From Acidobacteriota bacterium (GTDB lineage Bacteria > Acidobacteriota > Thermoanaerobaculia > Gp7-AA8): 64,000 nucleotides of DNA. How positions within the stretch are numbered: the stretch's first letter is position 1; the number at the start of each line of letters is the position of its first letter. Below, piece after piece: positions 2,336-9,009 of this stretch. The notes under the pieces are model-generated. The model saw only the letters and a list, made by a program, of their open reading frames with translations. It searched no databases and was not told where the DNA came from. The DNA is taken from the NCBI GenBank assembly GCA_021325515.1, contig JAJPHC010000057.1:124001-188000 (forward strand), read 5' to 3'. A program made the position numbers and the translations under genes.

Positions 2336-2372
2336 GCCTGTGTCGCGGGTTCGAGTCCCGTCGCCCGCTCCA
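2336..2372 (+). pseudogene. tRNA-Gly 3' remnant (probable attachment site)
   Basis: The segment holds a complete T-arm (stem GCGGG/CCCGT around loop TTCGAGT), then CGCCCGC, T and CCA, which is the 3' acceptor strand, discriminator U and encoded CCA typical of bacterial tRNA-Gly. The matching 5' acceptor strand GCGGGCG is absent from the preceding 150 bases, and no anticodon arm with U33 can be drawn. So only the 3' part of the tRNA is here. Such fragments are typical of the far end of elements that integrate into tRNA genes. The orientation predicts that the element lies to the left, towards position 1 and beyond. Confidence 0.75.
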
Positions 2373-2414: not shown

Positions 2415-2654
2415 ATGGATTCCCGAGAGATGATTCGGAACTTCCTCCTCGCGCGCTTCCGCTCGAAGATCCGCGGGGGCGCGCTTGCGTTTGATGCTCC
2501 GCTGATCTCCAGCGGTGTGATCGACTCGTTTGGTGTCCTCGAGGTGATGGCGTTTCTCGAGGATACGTTCGCGATCACCATCGATCCCAACGCGCACGAG
2601 CCGGCGGAATTCGAGACCGTCGACAGCATCGCTGCGCTGGTCGTCCGGCCGTGA
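2415..2654 (+). CDS. Acyl carrier protein
   Basis: A 79-residue protein with the ACP signature GVIDSFG; Ser38 is the predicted 4'-phosphopantetheine attachment site, with Phe replacing the usual Leu after it. The length and the helix pattern (VLEVMAFLEDTF after the serine) fit a stand-alone carrier such as DltC. The start ATG at 2415 has no clear ribosome binding site; the next ATG is at 2430. It is the first gene of a five-gene operon, and its TGA overlaps the GTG of the next gene in GTGA. In this context it probably carries the acyl group that the MBOAT protein transfers across the membrane. No phosphopantetheinyl transferase lies in the window. Confidence 0.88.
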   Translation: MDSREMIRNFLLARFRSKIRGGALAFDAPLISSGVIDSFGVLEVMAFLEDTFAITIDPNAHEPAEFETVDSIAALVVRP

Positions 2655-3478
2655 GCGCGCCGGCCTGGGAGTGCGATCTCGTCCTCGGGCTTCCTCACAC
2701 GAGCCATCGCGGGTTCTCCGAGCATCACCTCCTGAAATTCGCGGGGCACTTCCAATGGAATGCGATTGCGGCTGCGGCAGGGCTGCCGCTGTCTTCACTG
2801 CGCACCACGGCGGGAGCCGAGGTGTATGCGAGCTTCTATTACATCGAAGTGATCGTGCCCGATGACGCGCCGCTCGAGTCGTTCCGGCTCGATGACACGG
2901 TGCACTTCGCGATCTCGCTGCGCGCTTTCAAGAACATCGCGATCGAAGGGCGCGTTGCAGTTTCGCGCGGAGTCGCGATTCACTTCGCCAACATCTTCAT
3001 CACTCCGGAAAAGGGCAACAGCCGCCTGCGCGTCGCACCGCCGGCGCAGGCCGATTTCTCCTCGCTGCCGCTGCTGCCGAACGACGAGAATCCGTTTCAG
3101 CTCACGCGTGCCGCGGAGGAGAGCGGAGTGCTGGACGTGATCGGCGATGGATGGGAGCGCGCCGGCAGCTTCGATCACCGCTATGCGATCGACGCCGACC
3201 GCGACACGAATGGCGCGGGGCTGGTCTACTTCGCGAACTACATCGCGTTCATGGATACGGCGGAGCGGCTCGCACTGCAATCGCTGGGAATCGATGCGCC
3301 GATGCGCTCGCTCCGCCGGCGCCGCATCGCCTACTACGGAAACGCCGAGGTTTCCGACACGATCACGGTGCACGTCGAGGTGTTCCGGAGGGAAGCGAGC
3401 CTCGCGTTTCGCTATCGCATCACCCGCGATGAAGATGGCGCGATGATCGCCCTGTCGGAGGCGATCAAGGCGCGATGA
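2651..3478 (+). CDS. LnmK-like double-hotdog acyltransferase/decarboxylase
   Basis: A 275-residue protein starting at GTG 2651. The N-terminal half, with GLPHTSHRGFSEHHLLKFAG (13-32) and EVYASFYYIEV (57-67), resembles the N-terminal hotdog of LnmK and of the Pnap_2097 biosynthetic family. The C-terminal half contains YFANYIAFMDTAE (193-205), typical of a thioesterase-like hotdog. LnmK of leinamycin biosynthesis takes methylmalonyl-CoA, acylates itself on a tyrosine, decarboxylates it and passes propionyl to an ACP. Tyr59, Tyr63 and Tyr64 are candidates for that residue here; I cannot align them with certainty. Four-base overlaps on both sides with the ACP and SGNH genes suggest it loads the adjacent ACP. 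The substrate is inferred. Confidence 0.68.
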   Translation: MSAPAWECDLVLGLPHTSHRGFSEHHLLKFAGHFQWNAIAAAAGLPLSSLRTTAGAEVYASFYYIEVIVPDDAPLESFRLDDTVHFAISLRAFKNIAIEGRVAVSRGVAIHFANIFITPEKGNSRLRVAPPAQADFSSLPLLPNDENPFQLTRAAEESGVLDVIGDGWERAGSFDHRYAIDADRDTNGAGLVYFANYIAFMDTAERLALQSLGIDAPMRSLRRRRIAYYGNAEVSDTITVHVEVFRREASLAFRYRITRDEDGAMIALSEAIKAR

Positions 3479-4437
3479 ACCGTCACGCGCGGCGGTTGCT
3501 GCTCGTCGTACTCTGGCTCGTGGTGGCCGACGTCTTCGTGCCGCCGCTGCTGCAGCGCGCGGAGCATGCGCGCTACGAGCGGGGAGGAGCGTTCCGCTTC
3601 GAGAATTCGGATCTCTTCGCGCTCGGGCCAATGGTTCGGTATCTCCGCGAGCATCCGCACGGCGATCGCCCGCGCGCCGTCTTCCTCGGCAACTCCGTCG
3701 TCTTCGGCTACGGGATCGATGCACGCGAGGCGCTGCCGGCGCAGTTCGAGCGTTTCGCGCGCGGGCGCCGCGTCTTCAATGCTGCAGTGAATGGTCAGGA
3801 GATGGGCGACAGCCTGTTGGCCGGCAAGGCGATCATCGACTCGGTCGACACACTCTTCGTGCAGGTGATTCCGCACCACGACGCGGCACGCCCCATCCTC
3901 GGCAAGCTGCTGCCGGTGAGCAGCGAGGATGCGCAGCGCTACGGCCTCGAGCAGTTCGATCCGATCGAAGCGCGGTTGCGCTCGATCCTCGGCCGCGTGT
4001 GGCGTCTCTATGCCTCGAACGACCGGCTGCAGGCGGCGTGGTTCGGAACGTCGACGCGCCAGTTTCTCTATCTGCACAAGCGCAATTGGATCGTGAGGCG
4101 TGCGGCGCCGCCGCCGATCTCGCCCCACATCTCGCCGGTGAACCTCGTCTCGCCGCGCAATGGAACCGGCGATCCGACGTCGATCTCGCAGTCCATGGTG
4201 GCGCTGGCGGACGTCGCGGCGGCGCACCGGAAGCGCGTCGTCTTTCTGCATTTCCAGCGCGCGGGCGACGCACTCGATCCGAACGTCGCGGGTGCATTCA
4301 ATGCGCGATACGCGCCGCATGCGGAGCTGGTGATCGTCGACGTGCCGCCTGCGCTCTATTCCGACCGGCAGCACCTGACGCCGGATGGCGCCGCCTCGGT
4401 CGCGGCGGCGCTCGCGGCGCATGAGGGACTGCAATGA
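3475..4437 (+). CDS. Membrane-anchored SGNH-hydrolase-like protein (DltD/AlgJ-like role)
   Basis: A 320-residue protein with one N-terminal hydrophobic segment (about 7-26) and a large domain predicted to face outwards. SGNH-type features are FLGNSVVFGYG with Ser74 as the likely nucleophile (GNS in place of GDS), NAAVNGQ around 102-108, and DRQH at 297-300, the usual DxxH block. In Dlt and alginate acetylation systems, proteins of this fold and topology take the acyl group from the MBOAT step and place it on the polymer. ATG 3475 overlaps the previous stop in ATGA and the gene overlaps the MBOAT gene in the same way, which strongly supports a shared task. A plain esterase is the alternative. 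Confidence 0.8.
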   Translation: MNRHARRLLLVVLWLVVADVFVPPLLQRAEHARYERGGAFRFENSDLFALGPMVRYLREHPHGDRPRAVFLGNSVVFGYGIDAREALPAQFERFARGRRVFNAAVNGQEMGDSLLAGKAIIDSVDTLFVQVIPHHDAARPILGKLLPVSSEDAQRYGLEQFDPIEARLRSILGRVWRLYASNDRLQAAWFGTSTRQFLYLHKRNWIVRRAAPPPISPHISPVNLVSPRNGTGDPTSISQSMVALADVAAAHRKRVVFLHFQRAGDALDPNVAGAFNARYAPHAELVIVDVPPALYSDRQHLTPDGAASVAAALAAHEGLQ

Positions 4438-5537
4438 TCTTCACCGAATTGCGGTTCGTGCTGCTCTTCGCCGGCTGCTGGATCTCGTTCTTCGCAGTGC
4501 CGAGGAAGATGCGGATGGCGGTGCTGGCGGCGTGGGGAATGACGTTCTATGCGCTGTTCGCCGGATGGTTCCTCGCGGTCGTGCTGGCGTTGACGCTGGC
4601 GGCGCTCTACGTCGTGCCGCTGGCCGCGGGGCTCGCGATCGTGGGCGTTCTCGTTTACGTCAAGCTGTCGCCGGCGATCGTTCCGCTCGGCATTTCGTAT
4701 CTGGCGTTCGAGCTGCTGCACGTCGCGATCGAGAGGAAGCGAGGCAGGCTGCGCGAGCTCTCGCTGCCGAAGATGCTGGCCTTCGCCTTCTTCATGCCGG
4801 CGCGCGCGGCGGGGCCGATCAAGCGCTTCGCTCCTTTCGTCGCGGCGGTCGAAGCGGCGGAACGGTCGGCGGAGAACGTCTACGGCGGACTGCTGCGCGT
4901 GCTCATCGGCCTGGCGAAGAAGTTCGTGATCGCCGACCTCCTCGCGCTGACCGTGGAGGAATCGCGCTACGTCGATTCGATGCGCCACGCGTGGGTGATC
5001 GTGATCGCGTTCTCGTTTCGCATCTTCTTCGACTTCAGCGCCTACTCGGACATCGCGATCGGCTTCGCGCAGATGCTCGGCATCACGCTGCCGGAGAATT
5101 TCAACTGGCCGTATCTCGCGGCGAACATCCGCGAGTTCTGGGAGCGGTGGCACATCACGTTGTCGCAGTGGGTGCGCGATTACGTGTTCACGCCGTGCGG
5201 GCGGCTGCTCTTCCGCACGCCGCTGCGGCCGTATCCGGCGGTCATCGCGACGATCAGCTATCTGATCACGTTCGCGATCGTCGGTGCGTGGCACGGTCTG
5301 ACGCCTGCGTTCGTGTTGTGGGGCGTCTATCACGGCGTGCTGCTCTCCGCGTATCACGTGGTGAGCATCAAGATGCCGGCCGCGATCACCGATCGGGCGT
5401 GGTATCACGGCCGGCCGATGCGGTTCGTCGGCATGGCGTCGACGTTTCTCTTCGTCACGATCGGCTGGGTGCCCTTCTTCCTGCCGATGACGAAGGCGAT
5501 GACGTTCTGGATGCTGATGTTCGGAGTGAGACGATGA
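4434..5537 (+). CDS. MBOAT-family membrane acyltransferase (DltB/AlgI-like)
   Basis: A 367-residue polytopic membrane protein. The diagnostic MBOAT block is FSAYSDIAIGFAQMLGI followed by NFNWPYLAANIREFWERWH, with conserved His240, and the second block GAWHGLTPAFVLWG carries the invariant His287. Known members (DltB, AlgI, PatA) form a pore through which acyl groups move from a cytoplasmic thioester donor to the outside. It lacks about 30-40 N-terminal residues compared with DltB-type proteins, but both histidine blocks are intact. The start overlaps the SGNH stop in ATGA, and its TGA overlaps the start of the 36-residue microprotein. The likely donor is the ACP encoded at the head of the operon. 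Confidence 0.92.
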   Translation: MIFTELRFVLLFAGCWISFFAVPRKMRMAVLAAWGMTFYALFAGWFLAVVLALTLAALYVVPLAAGLAIVGVLVYVKLSPAIVPLGISYLAFELLHVAIERKRGRLRELSLPKMLAFAFFMPARAAGPIKRFAPFVAAVEAAERSAENVYGGLLRVLIGLAKKFVIADLLALTVEESRYVDSMRHAWVIVIAFSFRIFFDFSAYSDIAIGFAQMLGITLPENFNWPYLAANIREFWERWHITLSQWVRDYVFTPCGRLLFRTPLRPYPAVIATISYLITFAIVGAWHGLTPAFVLWGVYHGVLLSAYHVVSIKMPAAITDRAWYHGRPMRFVGMASTFLFVTIGWVPFFLPMTKAMTFWMLMFGVRR

Positions 5538-5644
5538 AGGCTCTGCTGCGGGATGTGCTCCTCTCGCTGGCGATCGCGGCGCTGATCGTCGCGCTGTTTC
5601 TCTTCGCGTCGTTCGACTCGACGTTCATCTACCGCGGCTTCTGA
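5534..5644 (+). CDS. DltX-like single-pass microprotein with C-terminal FIYRGF
   Basis: A 36-residue open frame whose ATG overlaps the MBOAT stop in ATGA. It has one hydrophobic helix (about residues 8-25) followed by a short tail ending FDSTFIYRGF, with the stop directly after it. DltX of Gram-positive dlt operons is likewise a small single-pass protein ending in an aromatic FIY-type motif, and its C-terminal tyrosine is reported to accept the acyl group from DltB before DltD passes it to the polymer. Tyr33 is the equivalent here. Such short genes are usually missed in annotation. The position, topology and tail together make this call fairly strong, although the sequence outside the tail is generic. 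Confidence 0.78.
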   Translation: MKALLRDVLLSLAIAALIVALFLFASFDSTFIYRGF

Positions 5645-5658
5645 GGTTGCGGCGCGCT

Positions 5659-6030
5659 TCAGATCAAGCCTGTGCTGCGCATCGAACGGCCGAGAAGATA
5701 GTTCAGCGCGATCGCGACGCCGGTGCGGTGCGGCATCGTGGCCACCATCGGCGCCGCCAGCAGCGCGAGAAACAGCACGCACTGCGCGAACCCGTGGGGC
5801 CGGAATCCGAGGAAGAGCGCGGCGATGCCGAAGAGGAGCGGGATGCGATCGGTGAGGACGATGAACATCCAGGCGTCGCCCTGATTCGGCTGGAATTCGA
5901 GGGCGCACGATGAGCAGCGCTCGTGCGCGGCAAGCCAGTATCGGAAGAGCCGTCCTTCACCACATCGCGGGCAACGGCGGCGAAATCCGCGGACGATGGC
6001 CGTGCGAAAGGTCGGTGTCACGAGTTGCAC
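5659..6030 (-). CDS. DUF983-family membrane protein
   Basis: About 123 residues with a zinc-ribbon-like N terminus, RCPRCGEGRLF, and a second pair CSSC about 20 residues later, followed by NQGDAWMFIVLTDRIP and two hydrophobic segments. This is the DUF983 pattern, whose biochemical role is unknown. The start is uncertain: I use the GTG ending at 6030; a second GTG lies at 6021. A GGAGG stretch occurs further upstream, but no start codon lies at a fitting distance from it. It converges on the acylation operon with 14 bases between the stops and diverges from the glycosyltransferase gene. Confidence 0.72.
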   Translation of the reverse strand: MQLVTPTFRTAIVRGFRRRCPRCGEGRLFRYWLAAHERCSSCALEFQPNQGDAWMFIVLTDRIPLLFGIAALFLGFRPHGFAQCVLFLALLAAPMVATMPHRTGVAIALNYLLGRSMRSTGLI

Positions 6031-6081
6031 AACCGGTGCTGCGGCGCGAGCGATTCCTCCACTATCATCCGCACGGTAATC

Positions 6082-7629
6082 GTGGCCAAAGCAAGACGCA
6101 CTCAACAACAGATACGTTCCGACGATCCCGCGGGCTGGTGGCGCGACCCGGTCGCGTGGGTGATCACCGCCCTCGCCGCTCTTCTCCTGCTCGTCAACCT
6201 CGGCGGGCGCGCGCTTTGGGAGGACGAGGCCGAGACCGCACTTCTCGGCCGCAGCATCCTCGCGCATGGAAAGCCGGTCGCGAGCAACGGCATCAATGTG
6301 ATCTCCCAGGAGGCGGGACGCGAATTCGGTTCCGACTACGTCTGGCGATGGTCGCCGTGGGTTCAGTTCTATCTCGGCGCGGCAGGGTTGAAGATGTTCG
6401 GCGATTCGGCGCTCGGTGCGCGACTGCCGTTCGCGCTGCTCGCGATCCCAGTCATTCCGCTGGTCTATCTGATCGGACGCCGCGCGTTTGGCTCGATTCT
6501 CGTCGCCAGACTCGCCGCGCTCGCGCTCGCGACGTCGCCCTGGTTCCTGTTGCAGTCGCGTCAGGCCCGATGGGAAGCGCCGGCGTATCTCCTCACCTGC
6601 ATCGTGCTGCTCGCGGTCTTCGAGATGGAGCGGTCGATCGCCTGGCCGGTGGTGATCGCGGCAGCCGGCGCCGCACTTTTCTACACAAACTACTTTGTCG
6701 CGGTCTGTCTGCTCGTTTCGATCGCGGCCGCTTCGCCGATGCTGCGTCGCGATCGCGATTTCCTCATCAGGCTCGCCTGTGGGCTCGCCGGCGCTGCGGC
6801 GCTGTCGATTCCCGGCGTGATCTTCTTCCACGTTCTCGGCAAGACGGGCGGCGGACAACTGAGCGCGCTCAAGCAGTTCTGGCTGTATGCGGTGCAGTTC
6901 GTGACGTTCCTCGCGCCGCTGCCGCTCGTCATCATCGCGTTGTTCAACGACAGGCGGCCGGCGACGCGCTTTGTGCTGGCGACGGTGACGGCGCTGTGCA
7001 TCATCCTCGCGTTCGCGCCGTGGAGCATGTTCCGCTATCTCACGATCGCGTTTCCGATCGCGGCGCTCGTGTCGGGCGTTGCGCTCGCGTGGCTGATGGC
7101 GCGGAGCAGGGTGGCGGGATGGATCGGAGTCGCGCTGCTCGTCTGCACATCGATCCTGCATCAACTGCCGCTGGGCTACATGCAGGTCGAGGGTACGGAG
7201 ATCGCGCAGCCGTCGATCTCACCGATCGCGTCGTACGTGCAGGAGATGATTTCGCCGCCGCGCGATGCGGATGTTGCGGTCGTTGAGTATCTGCGCGCGC
7301 ATGCTTCACCGGGCGATACCGTGCTGGCATCGTATGGCGATCTGCTGCTGCAGTTCTACACGCGGCTGCATGTCACCGGCGGGCTGGAGGGACACCTGCC
7401 GCCGCCTTCCGATCCCGAGTGGATCGTTCTGCGTCCGTACTATGTGAGCCCCGAGCCGGGGAAGGATTTCGAGCTGCTGAAGGCGATGGACCGCACGATC
7501 GACTTGCGGCAATACGACGTCGCGACGACGGTCCCCGATCCGATCCTGAGCGGCAATCCCGACCCGATGTTCCACCTCTTCCGCGAGGACCCAACCGCCA
7601 AGCCCCTCCGCCTGCTCCGCCACCGTTAA
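6082..7629 (+). CDS. GT39/ArnT-like integral membrane glycosyltransferase
   Basis: A 515-residue protein with about eleven hydrophobic segments. After the first transmembrane helix it carries GGRALWEDEAETALLGRSI, the acidic first loop that holds the catalytic Asp/Glu in the dolichyl-phosphate-mannose and ArnT family, followed by WRWSPWVQFYL, also typical. Members transfer sugars from polyprenyl-phosphate donors to proteins or lipid A on the outer face of the membrane. The start is GTG 6082 (product begins VAKARRTQQ); no clear ribosome binding site is visible. The stop codon TAA lies inside the first copy of a palindromic repeat. Donor and acceptor cannot be told from sequence. Confidence 0.85.
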   Translation: MAKARRTQQQIRSDDPAGWWRDPVAWVITALAALLLLVNLGGRALWEDEAETALLGRSILAHGKPVASNGINVISQEAGREFGSDYVWRWSPWVQFYLGAAGLKMFGDSALGARLPFALLAIPVIPLVYLIGRRAFGSILVARLAALALATSPWFLLQSRQARWEAPAYLLTCIVLLAVFEMERSIAWPVVIAAAGAALFYTNYFVAVCLLVSIAAASPMLRRDRDFLIRLACGLAGAAALSIPGVIFFHVLGKTGGGQLSALKQFWLYAVQFVTFLAPLPLVIIALFNDRRPATRFVLATVTALCIILAFAPWSMFRYLTIAFPIAALVSGVALAWLMARSRVAGWIGVALLVCTSILHQLPLGYMQVEGTEIAQPSISPIASYVQEMISPPRDADVAVVEYLRAHASPGDTVLASYGDLLLQFYTRLHVTGGLEGHLPPPSDPEWIVLRPYYVSPEPGKDFELLKAMDRTIDLRQYDVATTVPDPILSGNPDPMFHLFREDPTAKPLRLLRHR

Positions 7630-7784
7630 GTTGGTTTTCGGGGGTCACACCTGGAAAATCAACTTAACGTCATGCCAGGTCGCCACCGTTAAGTTGATTT
7701 TCCAGGTGTGACCCCCAAGAACCAACTTAACGGTCCGTCGTTAAGTTGATTTTCCAGGTGTGACCCCCGAAAACCAACTTTACT
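7624..7784. repeat. Three copies of a 46-bp imperfect palindromic repeat
   Basis: Units lie at 7624-7669, 7687-7732 and 7739-7784. The first is inverted relative to the other two. Each starts CGTTAAGTTG and, except for the decayed third copy, ends CAACTTAACG, with a conserved asymmetric core containing CCAGGTGTGACCCCC. The ends of each unit can pair, and the first can also pair with the second or third. The TAA stops of both flanking convergent genes fall inside the TTAA ends of the outer units. It may act as a bidirectional terminator or be a MITE-like or REP-like mobile repeat; no transposase lies nearby. Confidence 0.85.
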
Positions 7785-9009
7785 CGTAGCGGAGGGCGTC
7801 GATGGGGTCGAGGTGGGAGGCTTTGAGGGCGGGGAAGAAGCCGAAGGCGATTCCTACGGCGCCCGCGACGCCGAACGAGATCGCGATCGACATCGGGCTC
7901 ACCACGATCGGCCAGCCGCTCAGCTTTGCGGCCAGTGCCGAGACGCCGATGCCGGCGAGCACGCCGATCAGTCCTCCGACGATCGACAGCGTGATCGCCT
8001 CGAACAGGAACTGCAGCAGCACATGACGTCCCTTCGCGCCGATTGCCATCCGGATGCCGATCTCGCGCGTTCTCTCCGTCACGCTCACCAGCATGATGTT
8101 CATGATCCCGATCCCGCCGATCACGAGCGAGATCGCCGCGATCGACAGGAGGAGCGTCCGCAGGATCTTCATCTGCTGCTCGTTGGCCTGCGCGATCTCT
8201 TCCTGCGAGCGCATCATGAAATCGGAATCGCCGCCGGGAGGAATGCGGTGGCGCTGGCGCAGCAATCCCTCGATCTCAGTCATCGCCTGCTGCACGCCCG
8301 TCGCGTTGCGCGCCGCGGCCTGGATCATGTTGACCTTCGTCTGCCCCATCAGCCGCTTCATCACGGTCGTGTAAGGGGCGACGATCTGATCGTCCTGATC
8401 CTGTCCCATCGTGTTGCCCCCTTTTTTCTCGAGGACGCCCACGACTTTGAACGGCACGTTCTTGATGCGGACGATCTGCCCGACCGCCGCGCCCTGCGGA
8501 AAGAGATTGTCGGCAACCGTCTGGCCGATCACGCACACTTTGGCCGCCGAGCGCACATCCGCATCGGTGAAGAACTGGCCGTCCGAGAGATTCCACGCGC
8601 GGATGAACGGCCAGTCGACGCCGACACCCATGACCGACGTTCCCCAGTTCAACTCGCCGGCGACCGCCTGTCCCGCCGTTCGCATGATGACGGAGACGTA
8701 GGCAACGGACGGACACTCGGCCTTGATCGCATCGGCATCCTCGACGGTCATCGTCGACTGTCCTGTGAAGATGCGGGCGCCGCTCTGCGTCGCGGCTCCG
8801 GGGAAGATCATGATGAAGTTCGAGCCGAGGGAGTTGATCGTCTCCTGAATGGACTGCGTCGCACCGTTGCCGATGGCGACGACGACGATCACGCATCCGA
8901 CGCCGATCACGATGCCGAGCATCGTGAGGAACGAGCGAAGCTTGTTGCGGAAAATCGCTTTCAGTCCGACGATCGTGATGTTGCCGAGGCGAGTGACTGC
9001 ATTCTTCAT
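7780..9009 (-). CDS. MacB-type ABC transporter permease
   Basis: A 409-residue protein with one N-terminal transmembrane helix (about 25-48), a long extracytoplasmic domain and three C-terminal helices that include the FtsX-like block RTREIGIRMAIGAKGRHVLLQFLFEA. In MacB the ATPase is fused to this permease; here it is a separate gene whose TGA overlaps this ATG in ATGA. MacB-type exporters are mechanotransmission pumps that work with a MacA adaptor and an outer membrane channel. No TolC is encoded beside it; the only one in the window belongs to the RND operon at 50.7 kb. The substrate is unknown. Confidence 0.92.
   Translation of the reverse strand: MKNAVTRLGNITIVGLKAIFRNKLRSFLTMLGIVIGVGCVIVVVAIGNGATQSIQETINSLGSNFIMIFPGAATQSGARIFTGQSTMTVEDADAIKAECPSVAYVSVIMRTAGQAVAGELNWGTSVMGVGVDWPFIRAWNLSDGQFFTDADVRSAAKVCVIGQTVADNLFPQGAAVGQIVRIKNVPFKVVGVLEKKGGNTMGQDQDDQIVAPYTTVMKRLMGQTKVNMIQAAARNATGVQQAMTEIEGLLRQRHRIPPGGDSDFMMRSQEEIAQANEQQMKILRTLLLSIAAISLVIGGIGIMNIMLVSVTERTREIGIRMAIGAKGRHVLLQFLFEAITLSIVGGLIGVLAGIGVSALAAKLSGWPIVVSPMSIAISFGVAGAVGIAFGFFPALKASHLDPIDALRYE

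Follow-up and report, generated by a model that had tools for sequence, protein, structure and literature searches.

A separately encoded FIYRGF peptide as the likely acyl-shuttle arm of a proposed carrier-fed MBOAT/SGNH system in an acidobacterial operon

We found a 36-residue membrane peptide, here named X, whose gene directly follows that of a DltB-like MBOAT without a C-terminal tail, and which quite probably provides, from a gene of its own, the acyl-shuttle arm of an MBOAT/SGNH machine for envelope acylation. This degree of confidence applies to the shuttle role of X and not to the propionyl group discussed below. The DNA analysed, referred to as the window, is a stretch of 64,000 nucleotides from an Acidobacteriota genome. 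Its gene closes an operon of five genes in the same direction, with a 4-nt overlap at each of the four junctions (GTGA, ATGA, ATGA, ATGA):

2415..2654, + strand: putative acyl carrier protein, 79 aa, with a DSFGV phosphopantetheine site (PF00550 19.4 bits, cut-off 20.8)
2651..3478, + strand: LnmK-family bifunctional acyltransferase/decarboxylase, 275 aa, GTG start (TIGR04098 150.4 bits, cut-off 100)
3475..4437, + strand: putative SGNH/DltD-like protein, 320 aa, with an N-terminal membrane anchor, GNS (Ser74) and D297-x-x-H300
4434..5537, + strand: DltB-like MBOAT, 367 aa, without a C-terminal tail (PF03062, E=3e-26)
5534..5644, + strand: X, detached acyl-shuttle peptide, 36 aa, one helix, C-terminal FIYRGF

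The frame of X runs from an ATG at 5534 to a TGA at 5642-5644, and its start shares 4 nt with the MBOAT stop (ATGA at 5534-5537); a sequence-only reading of the window had described both the frame and this overlap, and both hold. The product, MKALLRDVLLSLAIAALIVALFLFASFDSTFIYRGF, 36 residues long, consists of a short, positively charged N-terminus (MKALLRD), a hydrophobic helix and the tail ASFDSTFIYRGF, in which Tyr33 (codon 5630-5632) is the fourth residue from the C-terminus. Its third-position GC of 0.92, vs 0.90 in the MBOAT gene, fits a coding frame. The terminal FIYRGF matches exactly the acyl-shuttle motif FXYXXF, as published in passages of PMC12148441. In the 64-kb window, 1145 stop-to-stop frames reach 25 residues or more, and of these only X has an F.Y..F ending, which would be expected from composition about 5e-6 times per frame and about 0.006 times in all of these frames. 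X exceeds the cut-off in none of the family libraries searched, and DUF5345 gives a weak signal over its hydrophobic segment (16.1 bits vs a cut-off of 27).

The MBOAT next to X carries His287 (codon 5292-5294), conserved in 104/104 aligned rows, and its AlphaFold2 model (pLDDT 90.5) has DltB 6bug as best PDB match, with a TM score of 0.75 by query length. With PF03062, His287 and the FIYRGF of X, the locus has the features of the broad MBOAT/SGNH acyl-shuttle class, namely an MBOAT with the histidine and an FxYxxF shuttle. At 367 residues this MBOAT compares with a median of 499 in its fused relatives (n=64), which are longer by C-terminal sequence and the tail. A second MBOAT of the source genome (L025, G000:C51:245977-246855) bears a fused FIYFQF tail and offers an internal comparison.

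Conservation of the tail in short frames behind related MBOATs, which the sequence-only reading had named as one way to check its claim, was found in one relative of the same family, G005. There, a 36-residue GTG-start frame lies one base past the stop of an MBOAT whose end is 48% identical over 71 residues to that of the window; this frame is 58% identical to X and ends in SFNATFIYRGF. The last seven residues, TFIYRGF, agree in 7/7 positions, three of their codons being synonymously changed. Loss of the frame or of its tyrosine from MBOAT-keeping relatives would have spoken against the claim; it was looked for, and G005 keeps both. Between the two peptides, 13 codons are identical, 7 synonymous and 15 nonsynonymous (13, 6 and 15 by position), counts from which purifying selection over the whole peptide is not clear. 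G005 is the sole orthologous relative found, on a 3.2-kb contig on which the MBOAT is cut; no LnmK or SGNH match was obtained from it, and the complete operon has thus been seen once.

The MBOAT query over 60 related genomes gave 28 matches in 21 genomes, of which those in G020 and G029 are tail-less and have a separate upstream peptide (ending in FLYVDF and FIYQGF, respectively); besides these two, the window and G005, the motif is fused to the MBOAT C-terminus in 24/24 remaining matches. A profile built from the four separate peptides matched eight times at E<=0.001 over 148 genomes of the class, and six of the eight matches (G000, G005, G029, G020, G144 and G145) reach the tail and adjoin a tail-less MBOAT, while the other two cover the helix only. 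Over 396 genomes of the phylum, partly the same set, the peptide profile gave four matches, three of them known from the class search and the fourth, in G375, a long frame ending in EPFIYQGF.

A census across MBOAT loci extended this pattern beyond the phylum. It comprised a non-random sample of 80 loci from named genomes, retrieved by a scan with six peptides taken from the MBOAT of the window; three MBOATs cut by a contig end or with a broken frame (L068, L082 and L145) were left out, here and from both trees. Of the remaining 77 MBOATs, 64 carry the motif at their own C-terminus and the other 13 are tail-less. A separate membrane frame ending in [FI]xYxxF occurs within 3 kb of 13/13 tail-less MBOATs vs 0/64 fused ones, a count which, as the search itself used the motif, speaks for the existence of the frame and is no independent evidence that the tyrosine is conserved. 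The 13 tail-less loci belong to Bacillota, Thermodesulfobacteriota, Planctomycetota, Pseudomonadota and Chloroflexota, with one lacking an assigned phylum. At one of them, L124, the census frame belongs to the first MBOAT of a tandem, and the scored MBOAT has its own peptide directly after it; this locus, from Planctomycetales (4140-8230), thus holds two tandem MBOAT genes, each with a separate peptide (FFFYQGF and KFFYQGF), with FkbH and ACP genes upstream. The residue after the tyrosine differs between the groups: in 19 split peptides (13 from the census and six from the window's class, the window's R included) it is N in seven, Q in seven, V in three and R in two, vs F in 53, A in eight, and Q, L and M in one each of the 64 fused tails.

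In a tree of the MBOAT core, calculated without the tail columns, the split (16) and fused (74) MBOATs are separated by one change with support 99/80, and a single change was recovered in 100% of 200 bootstrap trees; this tree omits 14 near-copies, and L123 and L125 were left out of the trees only. We had also considered that a fused MBOAT might have split recently in the lineage of the window; this finds no support, as the core tree places the window on the split side, together with DltB-like MBOATs.

Probably, we infer, this carrier-fed split-shuttle MBOAT/SGNH system propionylates an envelope polymer through acyl-Tyr33, the acylation, the acyl group and the acceptor all being predictions. 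The route, drawn by analogy, would lead from the carrier protein to the MBOAT, to Tyr33, to Ser74 of the SGNH-type protein and on to the polymer. First, as its family suggests, the LnmK-family enzyme would put a methylmalonyl-derived acyl group on the carrier protein and decarboxylate it to propionyl-ACP. Second, homology to DltX and PatA suggests that the DltB-like MBOAT could move the acyl group across the membrane, via His287, onto the Tyr33 hydroxyl. Third, the tail would swing to the extracytoplasmic SGNH protein, where the acyl group would pass to Ser74 and then to the envelope polymer. If this mechanism is correct, two tyrosines may carry the acyl group one after the other, first the LnmK-type Tyr59 and then Tyr33. 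The two-tyrosine idea builds on the role of the LnmK tyrosine; a later paper, by its title, concerns substrate-assisted catalysis.

That the transferred group is propionyl has, in our estimate, about an even chance. The LnmK-family protein aligns with LnmK in the PDB (4hzo and 6x7l, E=2.9e-8), its Tyr59 falling on the LnmK tyrosine that we take to be Tyr62, and both this tyrosine and an Asn-containing NGAGL loop are conserved in 4/4 of the aligned sequences. The source genome has two methylmalonyl-CoA mutase genes, which make the LnmK substrate plausible. In the leinamycin family, methylmalonyl-CoA is turned into propionyl-ACP, according to passages of PMC9396626, and a double-hot-dog methylmalonyl decarboxylase uses an Asn on a loop, according to passages of PMC8666670; the Asn in the loop of the window's protein may be its counterpart. 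Propionyl is proposed because of these points together, that is, the TIGR04098 family, the leinamycin scheme, the Tyr59 alignment, the Asn loop and the mutase genes. The shuttle may, as a serious possibility that we would still bet against on balance, be correctly identified while the LnmK-family protein delivers another acyl group (acetyl, malonyl or a longer one) or performs only thioesterase-like editing: the protein stays under the Pnap_2097 cut-off (109 vs 125 bits), its second half gives a sub-cut-off YbgC-thioesterase signal, and it is 24-31% identical to distant family members. Against such a role stand the TIGR04098 score above the cut-off, the conserved LnmK tyrosine and Asn-containing loop, and the 4-nt overlap of its gene with the ACP gene. 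LnmK is found above cut-off in 4/347 genomes of the phylum and neighbours an MBOAT only in the window, and the LnmK relatives L159, L160 and L161 have no MBOAT match within the stretch of sequence covered; the LnmK link therefore rests on one operon. It predicts a propionyl modification, which is chemically testable.

Small membrane subunits often stabilise their partners, and X, most of which is a hydrophobic helix, could likewise bind and stabilise the MBOAT without being acylated, leaving Tyr33 a structural role. We consider this unlikely, since it is the extracytoplasmic tail of X that is invariant, and this kind of tail bears an acyl group in PatA and reportedly also in DltX (passages of PMC12148441), and since the motif ends the MBOAT's own chain wherever there is no separate peptide (64/64).

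Among the known systems closest to this acyl shuttle is the D-alanylation system of the Gram-positive teichoic acids, DltX/DltB/DltC/DltD, which likewise combines a separate one-helix FxYxxF peptide with a tail-less DltB-like MBOAT, a carrier protein as donor and an SGNH-type partner, putative in the window. An ordinary Dlt operon with DltX, and D-alanine as the acyl group, would agree with DltB as the closest solved structure to the MBOAT, with the tree, in which this MBOAT shares a side with MBOATs adjoining a DltA-like ligase and an ACP, and with the ACP in the operon. It is nevertheless improbable, even more so than a stabilising subunit: in the 99.84%-complete genome no DltA (TIGR01734) lies over the cut-off (best 91.6 bits vs 559.85), the MBOAT reaches 211.1 bits against the DltB equivalog TIGR04091, under its curated cut-off of 375, the position of the loader, held by the DltA ligase in Dlt, is occupied by the LnmK-family enzyme, and the DltX model PF12459 does not match X at E<=1. 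The peptide gene lies directly 3' of the MBOAT gene, which is a further difference from Dlt. The PF12459 model is insensitive, as among ten peptides from other split loci it matched one, at a Dlt-like locus, with 15.1 vs a cut-off of 25 bits. The earlier description of X as DltX-like holds, with two qualifications. We favour a DltX-like mode of action, to which the single membrane helix with its C-terminal FxYxxF, the tail kept in G005, the missing tail of the MBOAT and the 13/13 vs 0/64 count all point, whereas membership in the DltX family is not supported, given the lack of a PF12459 match and of DltA. The carrier protein, LnmK-family enzyme and SGNH protein, which the earlier description leaves out, suggest an acyl pathway different from D-alanylation.

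That X is a spurious frame with a chance motif, as its mere 36 codons and its lack of above-cut-off family matches might suggest, is already contradicted by the same length and tail in G005, besides the codon bias, the ATGA coupling and the 13/13 rule, and is almost certainly wrong.

Two other systems share parts with the acyl-shuttle operon proposed here. PatA/PatB of Gram-negative peptidoglycan O-acetylation pairs an MBOAT with an SGNH protein, as the window's operon probably does, and PatA ends in the same hexapeptide, whose tyrosine has been shown to be acetylated there according to passages of PMC12148441. In PatA, however, the hexapeptide belongs to the MBOAT chain itself and acetyl-CoA serves as donor, whereas in the window it lies on a peptide of its own and the operon also codes for a carrier protein. 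In leinamycin biosynthesis, an LnmK-family acyltransferase/decarboxylase (LnmK) likewise adjoins a discrete ACP (LnmL), but propionyl there enters polyketide beta-branching, while in the window the LnmK-family gene is accompanied by those of an MBOAT, a shuttle peptide and an SGNH-type protein. The window's SGNH-type protein matches a profile of the SGNH proteins from other split loci weakly (25.7 bits, a one-sequence search) and scores 12.4 bits with Pfam SGNH, below the cut-off of 27; its single-sequence fold (pLDDT 46.6) is too poor for use, and its putative SGNH identity is based on motifs. So is that of the putative carrier protein, which lies below the Pfam cut-off and is matched by several NCBIfam ACP models, DltC among them, all below cut-off.

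Genes that could load or carry the acyl group vary among the split loci. A DltA-like ligase with an ACP occurs near six split MBOATs (L079, L084, L086, L095, L118 and L139), an ACP alone near L089 and L114, a FAAL-type ligase with an ACP near L030, LnmK with an ACP in the window, and FkbH with an ACP signal near L122, L124 and L135, the ACP match of L122 lying on the opposite strand. FkbH acts in glyceryl loading. No ACP, ligase, FkbH or LnmK was found near L029, L065, L066, L131 and L144, with less than 10 kb of sequence covered in four of these five. Any of these genes lies within 6 kb of 13/18 split and 15/64 fused loci (Fisher p = 4e-4), a value that is no test of cause, as a single change on the tree separates split from fused and the loci therefore lack independence; the count omits 24 fused loci of the class with 1.5 kb of flank each. 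A strict rule, by which a separate shuttle would occur if and only if there is a carrier protein, was rejected on account of the 15/64 fused loci with a loader or ACP and the five split loci showing none. Among the fused MBOATs, ligase and ACP accompany L136, L138, L141 and others. FkbH and ACP genes are close to L128, L130 and L133, three verrucomicrobial MBOATs with fused tails that apparently represent carrier-fed systems with a fused shuttle.

The split-shuttle MBOATs could form one old branch, with DltB as its best-known twig, whose cassettes of MBOAT, peptide and, usually, SGNH protein would be carrier-fed by loaders of exchangeable type (DltA-type ligase, FkbH, FAAL-type ligase or LnmK). 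The window would be the first LnmK-fed member, placing propionyl esters on a bacterial envelope polymer via an acyl-tyrosine relay. We put this wider proposal forward tentatively, with confidence just short of even.

Descriptions of separate shuttles outside Dlt were not found in the open-licence full-text literature, and MBOAT/SGNH pathways other than Dlt are said, in passages of PMC12148441, to have neither a DltX-like microprotein nor a similar carrier protein. Both of these points, as worded in those passages, are contradicted by the sequences presented here. Separate shuttle peptides adjoin tail-less MBOATs in Planctomycetota, Pseudomonadota, Chloroflexota, Bacillota, Thermodesulfobacteriota and the window's own phylum, at loci of which some are Dlt-like and others are not, and carrier proteins or their loaders lie near some fused MBOATs as well. 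Such peptides have probably been overlooked because they are short and fall below the cut-offs of the family models tried. A simple search rule could find them: where an MBOAT of this family lacks an FxYxxF end of its own, a separate one should lie nearby.

The surroundings of the operon showed two further features. The 31 bp at window positions 2342-2372 duplicate exactly the 3' end of a tRNA-Gly(CCC), without the tRNA body, and the intact tRNA-Gly(CCC) lies 4787 bp upstream of them on the same contig and strand; this has the appearance of a duplicated attachment site on either side of a 4.8-kb insert, whose end lies some 40 bp ahead of the operon. Downstream, a 45-nt repeat (CGTTAAGTTGATTTTCCAGGTGTGACCCCC...) occurs three times at 7622-7783, one copy being inverted, with a PMT_2-family glycosyltransferase-like gene on one side and an ABC-type permease gene, named by eye from its sequence, on the other.
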